Source of the DNA: Campylobacteraceae bacterium | Lineage (GTDB): Bacteria > Campylobacterota > Campylobacteria > Campylobacterales > BB28 | DNA length: 33,294 nt | Direction: 5' to 3' | Assembly: GCA_016744535.1 (NCBI GenBank) | Contig: JADGEE010000027.1 | Coordinates: 1-33,294 of the forward strand | In this document: positions 22,884 through 27,435 of the stretch, one piece after another | Position numbering within the stretch: position 1 is the first letter of the stretch | Layout: the number at the start of each line of letters is the position of its first letter | Made by a program: the position numbers and the translations under genes | The notes under the pieces: model-generated | The model's input: only the letters and a program-made list of their open reading frames with translations | Database searches by the model: none | What the model was told of the DNA's origin: nothing

Positions 22884-22904
22884 TAGAAAAATTGGTTGGA
22901 GCAT

Positions 22905-23588
22905 ATGAAAAAAAGAATTTTAATAGTTGAGGATGAGATTCAAATCATTAAATTTATAAAAAATAGGCTAGATGAAAATATTTTTGATATTGATATTTCA
23001 ACAGATGGTAAAGATGCAATTTCAAAAGTTAAATCAAATAGATATGATTTAATAACTTTAGATATTATGTTGCCATCTATTAACGGGTTTGATATATGTA
23101 AAGAGACAAGAGCAAACTCAAGAGATACATTTATAATCATAGTAAGTGCAATCAATAAAGAAGAAGATAAATTAAAAGGATATGAGTTGGGTGCGGATGA
23201 TTATATATCAAAACCATTTTCACCTAGAGAGTTATCAGCTAAAATAAAAGCTCTTTTCAAGCGTTCTCAAGAGATTCAAATAAATAACTCTAAATTTAAT
23301 AAAAATATTATGATAAATTATGATTCTAAAGAGATTTATATAAATAGCTTTAAATTAAAATTGACTCCAAGTGAGTATCTAATATTTGAAATACTATTTA
23401 AGTATCATAATAAGGTATTTAGTCGAGAGGAGTTATCGCAATTAATTTATGATAATAACTATGGCAATATTGATACTAGAGGAATAGATAGTCATATCTA
23501 TCATATTAGAAAAAAAACAAAACTCTTTGAATCAAAAGAGATTATAAAAACAGTAAGGGGAATAGGATATAAGATATATGAAAATTAA
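22905..23588 (+). CDS. OmpR/PhoB-family response regulator
   Basis: 227 residues. The receiver has E9/D10 in LIVEDE, D53 in LITLDIMLP and K103 in YISKPFSP. A winged-helix DNA-binding domain follows from about 130 to the end (KLTPSEYLIFEILF, then RGIDSHIYHIRKKT, TVRGIGYKIYEN). It should be a transcription regulator controlled by the kinase that overlaps its 3' end. I chose the ATG at 22905; a TTG at 22896 would add three residues, and the close GGAG (22898-22901) leaves the choice open. It follows the acyl-ACP synthetase by about 20 bases and may be read with it. Its regulon is not visible, although the sulfite oxidation operon ends next to this pair. Confidence 0.9.
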   Translation: MKKRILIVEDEIQIIKFIKNRLDENIFDIDISTDGKDAISKVKSNRYDLITLDIMLPSINGFDICKETRANSRDTFIIIVSAINKEEDKLKGYELGADDYISKPFSPRELSAKIKALFKRSQEIQINNSKFNKNIMINYDSKEIYINSFKLKLTPSEYLIFEILFKYHNKVFSREELSQLIYDNNYGNIDTRGIDSHIYHIRKKTKLFESKEIIKTVRGIGYKIYEN

Positions 23589-24582
23589 AAAATTTTTGAT
23601 AATCATTTACGCTTTAGCTGGTTTTTTCATTTCAATATTCACAGCATTTATGACATTTATAATTATAAATGAGCCAATTGGCTTAAAAATGTTTACAAAA
23701 ATAGTAATCACTGTTTTACTATCTCTTCCATTAATTATGCTTATTAGTTACTATATTGGAAATTACTTATCAAATAAATTTAAAGATATAGAGTCAGTAC
23801 TTTTAAATATTAAAGATGAAAAGTTTGAAACTAAAGAGATTAATGAGTATATAAAAGAGGTTGAAGAGATAAAAAATAGTATCAACTTTTTATCTAAAAA
23901 ATTAAACCAATTAATTGAAGACTTAAAGATTAAAAATAGAAACTTATCTACTATGCTAATATCTTTAGCACACGATGTCAAAACTCCTTTAACTATATTA
24001 AATGGCTACATAGAAGAGTTAGAAGATGATTTAATTTCAAAAGATAATTTAAAAACAACTACCACTAAAATGCAAAATGAAGTAAAGTTTATTGATGAGC
24101 TTAGTTCTGATATAGTTAGATTTATAAACTCTATGCAAAATAGAAAGATAAAAAATATTATAAATTTAAATCAACTCATAATGAGTGAAGTTTTACCTCT
24201 ATTAAAAAAAGATATAGAGATAGAAAACTTAACTCCTATAAATTACCAAATAGAGTTTAATAGAGTTGATTTGAAAAAGATAGCTATCAATCTTTTAAGT
24301 AATGCCATTAAATTTAGTGCTAAAGATAGTTATATAAGAGTTTTTGTTGAAGATGAAAAAAAAATTATATTTGAAAATAGAGGTATAAAAATTAATAAAA
24401 AACATAAAAATGAGATATTTGAACCATTCTTTACACTTTCAAAGAGTAGAAATAGGAGAGAGGGAGGGCTTGGACTTGGTCTAACTATATCAAAAAATTT
24501 AGCTTTAAATAATAATTATAACCTCTATTTTGATGATAATTACATAACTGCAACTAGATTTATATTAATTGCTAGGGTTTAA
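23578..24582 (+). CDS. Sensor histidine kinase lacking a periplasmic domain
   Basis: 334 residues, starting inside the last codons of the response regulator (11-base overlap), so the two form one unit. Two membrane helices (about 5-31 and 40-62) are separated by only some eight residues. Signal input must therefore be within the membrane, from a partner, or cytoplasmic. A coiled-coil linker (66-120) leads to the H-box LISLAHDVKTPLTIL with H132. The ATP-binding domain has KIAINLLSNAIKFS, and a G-box EGGLGLGLTISKN. This is the intramembrane-sensing layout known from antimicrobial-peptide kinases of Firmicutes. The 3' end overlaps the convergent cytochrome gene by 18 bases. Confidence 0.88.
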   Translation: MKIKKFLIIIYALAGFFISIFTAFMTFIIINEPIGLKMFTKIVITVLLSLPLIMLISYYIGNYLSNKFKDIESVLLNIKDEKFETKEINEYIKEVEEIKNSINFLSKKLNQLIEDLKIKNRNLSTMLISLAHDVKTPLTILNGYIEELEDDLISKDNLKTTTTKMQNEVKFIDELSSDIVRFINSMQNRKIKNIINLNQLIMSEVLPLLKKDIEIENLTPINYQIEFNRVDLKKIAINLLSNAIKFSAKDSYIRVFVEDEKKIIFENRGIKINKKHKNEIFEPFFTLSKSRNRREGGLGLGLTISKNLALNNNYNLYFDDNYITATRFILIARV

Positions 24583-25194
24583 CTTATACCAGTTTTGAGG
24601 CTGTGTTAAAGGGACTCTTCTTATGACTCTTTTATTATTAGAAGTGTTATAGTTTGTCTCTAAATAGTCTAAAATAGTCTGCTCTCTTGCTTCATTAAAT
24701 TCTAATTGTTTTGATTTAAGTTTATCTATTAAACCGTAACTTTTCATAAGGCTAATTTTACCTCTCCACCAATCCCTATTACCACTTGAACTTGATATAT
24801 ATTTTCCACTATGACAAAGTGTACAACTCTCTTTTACTGTGTCATAGCCTCTTGTTATAATTAAACCATCACTATCAACTTCAATATGCTCTACATCTGT
24901 TGTAGTATCTGTCGAAATTGTACAGTTTTTTACTGCATTAATCCAAAAACCTCTTGCTATATCTATACTACTTAATTGATTTACTGTAATAGATGTATCT
25001 TTATTAGTATGATAAACAGACCAAGAGTTATCTCTATAAGCCCAAATAGATTTAACACAATCACTCGTAAAAGAGTCCATATTTGAAATTTTTTCAGTGC
25101 TACCAATTAAATTCCAACCCTCTTTAACCTCTATCTCTTGTGAGGTAGCAAAAAATGTTACTCCACTTATAACTAAAATTGCTAACTTTTTCAT
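24565..25194 (-). CDS. Periplasmic mono-haem cytochrome c, probable electron acceptor of the sulfite dehydrogenase
   Basis: 209 residues. A signal peptide (1-18, KKLAILVISGVTFFATS) is followed by a Trp-rich domain (about 20-92) with GWNLIG, CVKSIWAYRDNSW and GFWINAVKNCTI. A small cytochrome part then carries one haem site CTLCH (124-128); a distal methionine ligand may be in SLMKSYG. It starts four bases after the stop of the SorA/SoxC-like gene, so the two should form a SorAB-type sulfite:cytochrome c pair. SorB proteins are normally just a small cytochrome, so the extra N-terminal domain is unusual; the same domain is found in the first gene of this operon. The 3' end overlaps the opposing kinase gene by 18 bases. 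Confidence 0.75.
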   Translation of the reverse strand: MKKLAILVISGVTFFATSQEIEVKEGWNLIGSTEKISNMDSFTSDCVKSIWAYRDNSWSVYHTNKDTSITVNQLSSIDIARGFWINAVKNCTISTDTTTDVEHIEVDSDGLIITRGYDTVKESCTLCHSGKYISSSSGNRDWWRGKISLMKSYGLIDKLKSKQLEFNEAREQTILDYLETNYNTSNNKRVIRRVPLTQPQNWYKLNPSN

Positions 25195-25198
25195 ACTA

Positions 25199-26506
25199 TT
25201 AACTCTCTATCATTACTGCTATTCTGTGACAAGCATTATTTAAATACCCCTTTGGATTCCACTGAGGCATAACCATTGGCTGTTTTATACCATTTAAATC
25301 AGTTGCTCTTGCCCATATTTCATAATATCCAACTTTAAGAAAATTAACTTCAGTACTCCAGTGTTGCCAAGCTAATCTATTTATAGGCTCTTGTAATATA
25401 GCTTTAGACCAAGTTGCTCCAAAATCAATTGAGATTTCCATCTCATTAACTCTCAAATCACCTGCCCAAGCGTGTCCTCTTAACTTTAGCCTATCATTTA
25501 ATTTAACTACTGCTCCACTTTTTGGATAAGTTATCAAAGATTTAACAGGCATTGATTCTATAATACACATATTTTCACTCTCTTGACCAGGTTCAACTGG
25601 ATTACGAGGGGTTCTATAAGATGAGCCTCCCATCTTTACACCATCGTGTACTTGATTTCTAATTACAATTTTATTTAACCATTTACCAGAAGTTGAGGCT
25701 GGCCAACCTGCTGTGATTACTCTTAATGGATGACCATTATGAAATGGAATATCACCGCCATTAACACCCCAAGCGATTATACTCTCATCCTCTAGTGCCT
25801 TTTTAAGTGGAACTCCTCTTGAGATTGCCTCTTTACCATCAGAATTTAAACTCTTATCAGCTCCATAATATGCAACATATACAGCATCATCTTTAATTCC
25901 ACAATCATTTAATACATCTTTTAACTTAACACCACTCCATTTTGCACAAGATATTGCACCTAATGACCATTGATTACCACTTGCAGAAGGGTTAAATTCA
26001 ACTCTACCATTTCCAGCACACTCTAGTTGAAGTTGAATAGTTACCTCTTCAAACTTCTCTTTTAAGTCAGAAATTTTATACTTTTTAGTAGTTTCACAAG
26101 ATTCACCACCTACCTCTAAAATCCAGTTATCTACATCAATATCTACTGGAGGTATGCCATTATTTCTAATAAACATTTTATCATTTGGTGTCACTTCATC
26201 ATCTAATAGATGTGCAGGAAATTCAGTATTTACAGGATAATCATTTAATATTATCATACCTTCGTGTTTTCCCTCTATCTTAAATGAACTATCATCAGCT
26301 ACTGCCACAGGAATTAAGCCACTTGGCATATTATTAGCAAACGGAATATTTGCTCCAATTACACTTGCCATTGCTAAAAGACCACTCTTTTTTAAAAAAC
26401 CTCTTCTAGTTTTGGGATTAATTTCTCTATCCCACAACTCTTTATCAGCTTTTATTGGGTCTTTTGAATAAAGCTCAAACAGACCTATTCTTTTTTTATT
26501 GTTCAT
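25199..26506 (-). CDS. Molybdopterin sulfite dehydrogenase, SorA/SoxC type
   Basis: 435 residues. A twin-arginine signal is visible as TRRGFLKK (33-40) then a hydrophobic run to VAVADD near 70, unusually placed behind a 32-residue N-terminal leader. The mature part has LTP-like EVTPNDKMFIRNNG, the molybdenum-ligand cysteine C163 in LQLECAGNGR, and the C-terminal dimerisation domain (LRGHAWAGDL, then VNEMEISIDFGATW). It should oxidise sulfite to sulfate in the periplasm and pass electrons to the cytochrome downstream. SorA or a SoxC-like sulfane dehydrogenase cannot be fully told apart, but no soxD or other sox genes are here. The start could be GTG at 26512 (in TAGTG) or ATG at 26506; I use the ATG. 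Confidence 0.87.
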   Translation of the reverse strand: MNNKKRIGLFELYSKDPIKADKELWDREINPKTRRGFLKKSGLLAMASVIGANIPFANNMPSGLIPVAVADDSSFKIEGKHEGMIILNDYPVNTEFPAHLLDDEVTPNDKMFIRNNGIPPVDIDVDNWILEVGGESCETTKKYKISDLKEKFEEVTIQLQLECAGNGRVEFNPSASGNQWSLGAISCAKWSGVKLKDVLNDCGIKDDAVYVAYYGADKSLNSDGKEAISRGVPLKKALEDESIIAWGVNGGDIPFHNGHPLRVITAGWPASTSGKWLNKIVIRNQVHDGVKMGGSSYRTPRNPVEPGQESENMCIIESMPVKSLITYPKSGAVVKLNDRLKLRGHAWAGDLRVNEMEISIDFGATWSKAILQEPINRLAWQHWSTEVNFLKVGYYEIWARATDLNGIKQPMVMPQWNPKGYLNNACHRIAVMIES

Positions 26507-26511
26507 ATTCA

Positions 26512-27435
26512 CTACTTATTTGAATCAAATTCAACTATATCCCAAAGACCTTTAACTAAATTACCTTTTAAATCATTTGCACTCTCATCTAAAAAGAAAT
26601 AATATAGTGGCTTACCTTGATACGAAATCTGTTTTGTTAAGTCATCTCTCTCTATCACTTTAAAATCACTCTCATTTAAATCATCCGAAGAAGTGAAATT
26701 TTCAACATAAAAAACCGGCCACTTATCTTCGCAACCATCATAACAGTTACTCTTATCAACTTCATCATTATCAAAAGTGTATAGAGTAAATCCCTTATCA
26801 TCAGTTAAATATTTTAATTTTGTAGTATCATCACTCACTTTGACAAATTCATTATCTATTTCAACACCCTTTATTAAGTGCCAAATATTAGCAACAAAGT
26901 CACCTTTTACTTCACTATCTGTATCTAAATAGAAGTAATATAGAGGTAAAGAGTTTAGTGCTAATTGAGTATCACCATCTTCTCTTGTTATTTCTGAGAA
27001 TCTATCATCTGTTGTTAAATTATCAGGATAAAAAATTGGCCACTTAACTTTACAATCTCCACTACAATTACTTGTATTTAAAGTATCATTATCAAATGTA
27101 TATAGGGCATTTCCATTAATATCAGTTAAATAATTTACATCTCTATTTTTTACTTGAACTGAAGCATTAGTTGTTGTATCAATATTACAATTTCTATTTC
27201 CTTTTATCCAAAAACCATCTCCACTGCTGATAACATCAAACTCTTTTTTATTTTGAGTGTAACTTTTCCAACTATTATCACTATATGACCAAATAGAATT
27301 AACACAATCATTAAATAAATTTACACTTTTAATATCATCTACTGCACCTAAAAGTTTCCAATCATTTTCAATTTCAATAGACTGAGAATAGAGTAGAGTA
27401 GATAAAATTAGCGAAGAGATTAAAACTTTTTTCAT
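26512..27435 (-). CDS. Secreted protein with two PF03640-type repeats and a shared N-terminal Trp-rich domain
   Basis: 307 residues with a signal peptide (1-18). Residues about 19-86 match the N-terminal domain of the operon's cytochrome (WKLLGA, CVNSIWSYSDNSW, GFWIKGNRNCNI). Two repeats follow (about 98-190 and 206-303). Each has LYTFDND, a Cys-x(3)-Cys pair (SNCSGDCKVKWPIFY and SNCYDGCEDKWPVFY) and LPLYYF/KPLYYF then GxxxxxxWxxV. That is the 'secreted repeat of unknown function' family (PF03640/COG4315). It is first in a three-gene operon with the sulfite dehydrogenase; its stop overlaps or abuts the next start. Such proteins often accompany periplasmic redox enzymes but their chemistry is unproven. 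Confidence 0.8.
   Translation of the reverse strand: MKKVLISSLILSTLLYSQSIEIENDWKLLGAVDDIKSVNLFNDCVNSIWSYSDNSWKSYTQNKKEFDVISSGDGFWIKGNRNCNIDTTTNASVQVKNRDVNYLTDINGNALYTFDNDTLNTSNCSGDCKVKWPIFYPDNLTTDDRFSEITREDGDTQLALNSLPLYYFYLDTDSEVKGDFVANIWHLIKGVEIDNEFVKVSDDTTKLKYLTDDKGFTLYTFDNDEVDKSNCYDGCEDKWPVFYVENFTSSDDLNESDFKVIERDDLTKQISYQGKPLYYFFLDESANDLKGNLVKGLWDIVEFDSNK

Follow-up and report, generated by a model that had tools for sequence, protein, structure and literature searches.

A tryptophan-rich module that begins two proteins of a sulfite dehydrogenase operon recurs at the termini of many exported proteins of a Campylobacterales genome

Two exported proteins encoded in a sulfite dehydrogenase operon of a Campylobacteraceae bacterium, a c-type cytochrome and a PF03640-repeat protein, begin with the same tryptophan-rich module, and this module was found again and again at the termini of otherwise unrelated exported proteins of the same genome. 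We lean towards the view that it is a general terminal add-on of exported proteins, which would tether its cargo to the envelope or to a surface matrix, and is not a connector devoted to sulfite oxidation. The interest of the operon lies in the module family itself and not in sulfite oxidation.

The operon and the shared N-terminal module

The operon lies on the minus strand of the window, the whole stretch of 33,294 nucleotides that was analysed, in the order PF03640 protein, SorA-like enzyme and cytochrome. The leading gene (26512-27435, minus strand) encodes an exported PF03640-repeat protein (E = 6e-36; 122.2 bits against the PF03640 gathering score of 24.4), in which the module precedes four repeats spanning 26533-27129 (27034-27129, 26869-26991, 26710-26808 and 26533-26661, minus strand), each above the family cut-off. 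These four repeats are shared with the PF03640/SCO0930 secreted repeat proteins. The operon protein differs from SCO0930 in having the N-terminal module and in having no lipobox-type Cys at the mature start, and its score with the NCBIfam SCO0930 model was 126.6 bits, which did not reach the cut-off of 275. No PF03640 gene was found in the 39 sampled relatives, and the operon gene is the sole family member found in this genome and those relatives; therefore, the PF03640 body probably came from another source and was then fitted with the module of the lineage.

The second gene (25199-26512, minus strand) starts with GTG, overlapping the stop of the PF03640 gene upstream, and encodes a SorA-like molybdopterin sulfite dehydrogenase with a Tat-type leader (RRGFLKK) and matches above cut-off to both PF00174 (E = 3e-46) and PF03404 (E = 6e-19). 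It aligned with 2blf_A (E = 9e-47) and over its whole length with NF052245 (SorA) at 240.7 bits, the curated cut-off of 600 not being reached. The enzyme has the CxGN motif, and Cys165 in ECAGNGR (26018-26020, minus strand) aligns with the Cys of CSGNSR in 2blf_A and is thus the counterpart of the SorA residue that we take, from established knowledge of the family, to be the Mo ligand. Standing between two module carriers, this enzyme is itself without the module. The third gene (24565-25194, minus strand) encodes an exported monohaem c-type cytochrome with a SorB-like body behind the module. It matched NF052246 (SorB) at 26.8 bits (E = 4e-6), below the cut-off of 93, and has the haem c attachment motif CTLCH at residues 124-128 (24811-24825, minus strand), where CxxCH is conserved in the SorB-like neighbours of SorA genes in other genomes. 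On the plus strand, a gene pair for a response regulator and a sensor kinase (22896-24582) converges on the operon, with an overlap of 18 bases between the sensor kinase gene and the end of the cytochrome gene.

The module covers residues 20-94 of the cytochrome (24913-25137, minus strand) and residues 19-86 of the PF03640 protein (27178-27381, minus strand), in both cases immediately following the signal peptide. When aligned with each other, the two stretches were identical in 40% of 73 columns, with 55 bits and, for this one comparison, E = 3e-17. To avoid circularity, a control profile was made solely from module copies of other genomes and run against 175 frames of the window; it recovered just the cytochrome (E = 4e-14) and the PF03640 protein (E = 8e-14), that is, E values of about 1e-13, and the third-best frame had an E value of 0.29. 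The scores of the two modules were 49.0 and 50.1 bits, respectively, and the maxima from 2000 shuffles of each were 11.2 and 13.3 bits. These results confirmed that the two stretches are homologous, and the first-pass annotation was right in seeing one tryptophan-rich module at the start of both proteins.

The same annotation had suggested a docking domain that holds the redox partners together. On this view, the module on the cytochrome and on the PF03640 protein would bind SorA or each other. The presence of the same Cys-type module on both SorA neighbours of one operon is in keeping with such a role. However, the modules of two PrcB-like proteins (E = 8e-16 and 4e-15) gave better alignments with the cytochrome module than that of the PF03640 neighbour did (E = 1e-11), and a tree of 20 Cys-type modules did not resolve the cytochrome and PF03640 copies as sisters.

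Signature, cysteines and predicted fold

The module has about 55-75 residues and the signature GWxLxG - [IV]WxYxxxxW - GFW[IV]K, with near-invariant aromatic positions. It was shown to occur in two forms, which may have different roles: one is a lone copy that has the Cys pair and directly follows the signal peptide, as in the cytochrome and the PF03640 protein, and the other is a tandem pair at the C-terminal end. Among 90 scored modules of this genome, both cysteines were present in 10, one in 3 and none in 77 (Fisher p ~1e-10, a value that is optimistic because related module copies are not independent). Because the paired cysteines co-occur so strongly, a disulfide between them, as had been suggested earlier, is plausible from the sequences, and it would stabilise the single N-terminal copy.

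The AlphaFold2 model of the cytochrome module alone was all-beta with six strands (mean pLDDT 88.9, pTM 0.77), and that of a tandem pair from a related MAG reached a mean pLDDT of 96.7 and a pTM of 0.88. Foldseek searches of the PDB with the single module and with the tandem gave no match at E ≤ 0.001. The sole good structural match of the tandem was A0A8D9C8P8, a "putative hemin binding protein" of an uncultured marine phage in BFVD (E = 2e-4, probability 1.00, TM-score 0.66 by query length); the identity between the two was 16%, and no sequence match was detectable in the phage collection.

Searches of Pfam, NCBIfam and PHROGs with both proteins, 23 single modules and 10 tandem pairs returned for the module isolated chance-level matches only. 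Weak database matches, to Kelch and beta-propeller lectin among others, were likewise at chance level, confined to isolated members, and were set aside. No relative of the module was found among the PDB sequences, no sequence relatives were found in plasmids, phages and viral contigs, and its motif strings occur in none of the papers searched. The description of the module as unrecognised therefore holds for the Pfam, NCBIfam and PHROGs families and for the sequences and folds of the PDB.

The near-invariant aromatic positions raised the possibility of carbohydrate or ligand binding, in which the conserved tryptophans would face a glycan and the cargo enzymes would be targeted to their substrate and not to the cell; several of the hosts are indeed hydrolases or carbohydrate-binding proteins. 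However, the module resembles no carbohydrate-binding module of Pfam and has no PDB fold match, its tryptophans may be mere core residues, and a cytochrome would gain little from being targeted to a substrate. We consider such glycan or other ligand binding quite unlikely as its general function.

Copies, cargo and distribution

The genome was searched for further copies with a single module, which gave 47 matches, and with a profile, which gave 93. After the surrounding regions were added, the count rose to 104 modules in 60 ORFs, mostly with a recognisable signal peptide. With the gene number of the 3.0 Mb genome estimated at ~1 per kb, nearly 2% of the likely genes carry the module. It is located at a terminus in 56 of the 60 ORFs (C-terminal in 40, of which 33 have tandem pairs, N-terminal in 16 and elsewhere in 4), and in 30 of the 40 C-terminal carriers the last GFW-like motif lies no more than four residues from the end of the protein. 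The cargo includes secretory lipase, PrcB_C, DUF1800, VWA with PA14, Cthe_2159, C13 peptidase with Lcl_C, CAP, LRR, subtilase and nuclease proteins, and many unknowns. In other genomes, the Cys-type module heads another c-type cytochrome and, as judged from the sequences, sulfatase-like, esterase-like, YHYH, PEBP-like and DUF1800 proteins; WD40-like proteins are also among the module carriers there. A c-type cytochrome of a different family in genome G007 (C42, L111), with the motif CATCH, has the Cys-type module immediately following its signal peptide.

At C85 of this genome (L070:4086-16003), adjacent exported ORFs of 1631 and 2337 aa have near-identical C-termini with four modules each; these large surface-type proteins arose by a recent duplication. 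At C161 of the same genome, an ORF of 86 residues (L100:6221-6478) matches the module and the start of a nearby DUF1800 protein (L100:534-2531), of which it looks like a truncated partial copy.

The profile search that the first-pass annotation had named as its check thus found the module on many unrelated exported proteins, the very outcome by which, according to that annotation, its reading would be refuted. In the order, the module was present in 10 of 40 genomes with 2 to 92 copies each (~255 in total), a very patchy distribution, and in the phylum-wide sample it was present in 12 of 347 genomes; a sister genome of the same genus has 45 copies. A GTDB-wide scan with the second half of the tandem, which is motif-based and finds close relatives only, returned Campylobacterota MAGs only. 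Among these were public sulfidic-cave MAGs titled Helicobacter cetorum (SulCav, L058-L067), which carry many modules and for which this species name looks doubtful. Similar GWNL...GYW pairs may also occur in secreted proteins of Bacteroidota and Ignavibacteriota.

Short terminal domains that sit on many unrelated exported proteins per genome are familiar from sorting and attachment systems, such as the T9SS C-terminal domains, PEP-CTERM and SLH. The module resembles these in being short, terminal and repeated on many unrelated exported proteins, and differs from them in sharing no common sequence family, in occurring at either end and in having no partner machine that was found. A terminal module, above all the C-terminal tandem ending in GFWIKK, could therefore be a sorting or secretion signal recognised by an export or surface-attachment machine, and the high share of C-terminal and tandem hosts, their ends so close to the last GFW-like motif and their signal peptides agree with this. 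On the other side, a quarter of the hosts, including the cytochrome and the PF03640 protein, have the module at the N-terminus, and no candidate machine was found. T9SS sortase had no match in the 40 genomes, a search in which the control genomes gave none either. The type II secretin family was present in each of the 40 genomes, whether they carry modules or not, and therefore its occurrence does not follow that of the module; type II secretion was dropped as a partner system since it offers no contrast among these genomes. A sorting signal is on balance unlikely. A more specific proposal is that Campylobacterales have an undescribed system for sorting or surface anchoring and that this module, borne by about 60 exported proteins in one genome and predicted to adopt a fold without counterpart in the PDB, is the tag that it recognises; this, too, is to be regarded as unlikely.

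Sulfite dehydrogenases without the module and the role of the module

In C. jejuni, SorA (Cj0005c) and SorB (Cj0004c) form a working sulfite:cytochrome c oxidoreductase (PMC4178425, PMC7759655). Like Starkeya SorA and C. jejuni SorAB, the operon encodes a SorA-like molybdoenzyme exported by Tat and, after it, a monohaem cytochrome; it differs in that the module is inserted between the signal peptide and the haem domain, the PF03640 gene leads the operon and its scores lie under the NCBIfam SorA and SorB cut-offs. SorA-like genes 52-63% identical to that of the operon were found in four relatives. The SorB-like cytochromes adjacent to them align with the SorB body of the operon cytochrome over its whole length, and they pass from the signal peptide to the haem domain with a short linker at most and without the module. 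The SorB-like neighbours at three more distant SorA-like loci also lack it, which bears out, in seven of seven cases, the earlier remark that SorB normally does so. In genome G002, the SorA/SorB pair is without the module although 16 modules are present elsewhere in the genome.

With SorB-like neighbours elsewhere lacking it, the module was most likely added to SorB in the lineage of this operon and is not required for the SorA-SorB pair. It is thus neither restricted to the redox partners nor conserved in them. The docking function proposed by the first-pass annotation is not supported in view of these module-free pairs and of some 60 ORFs of the same genome whose cargo has no relation to sulfite, and we regard it as highly improbable; it was rejected on the distribution of the module together with the module-less SorB neighbours. 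The alternative given in that annotation, that the modules of both proteins may bind the same surface, comes near to the reading that we prefer.

That reading, a general terminal add-on with a tethering role, may be pictured as follows. This Campylobacterales lineage attaches a small all-beta module to the ends of many exported proteins, and the cytochrome and the PF03640 protein share it because the lineage does so. Since the add-on is terminal and independent of the cargo, it most likely binds a shared component, either of the cell envelope or of a surface matrix, and would thereby tether its cargo; this step is suggested by the position and promiscuity of the module alone. In the operon, both module carriers, the cytochrome and the PF03640 protein, would be kept at one and the same site of the envelope, and electron transfer from SorA to SorB would not need the module. 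One common binding site for all hosts is not certain, because the cytochrome and the sulfite dehydrogenase are periplasmic and many other hosts resemble surface or secreted proteins.

With the module come a small fold, predicted with confidence and unmatched in the PDB, and the question of a common attachment target of all its hosts. As long as it has no name, many exported proteins of uncultured Campylobacterota are left half-annotated, and its presence on neighbouring genes tempts one to infer functional links that are false, as in this operon.
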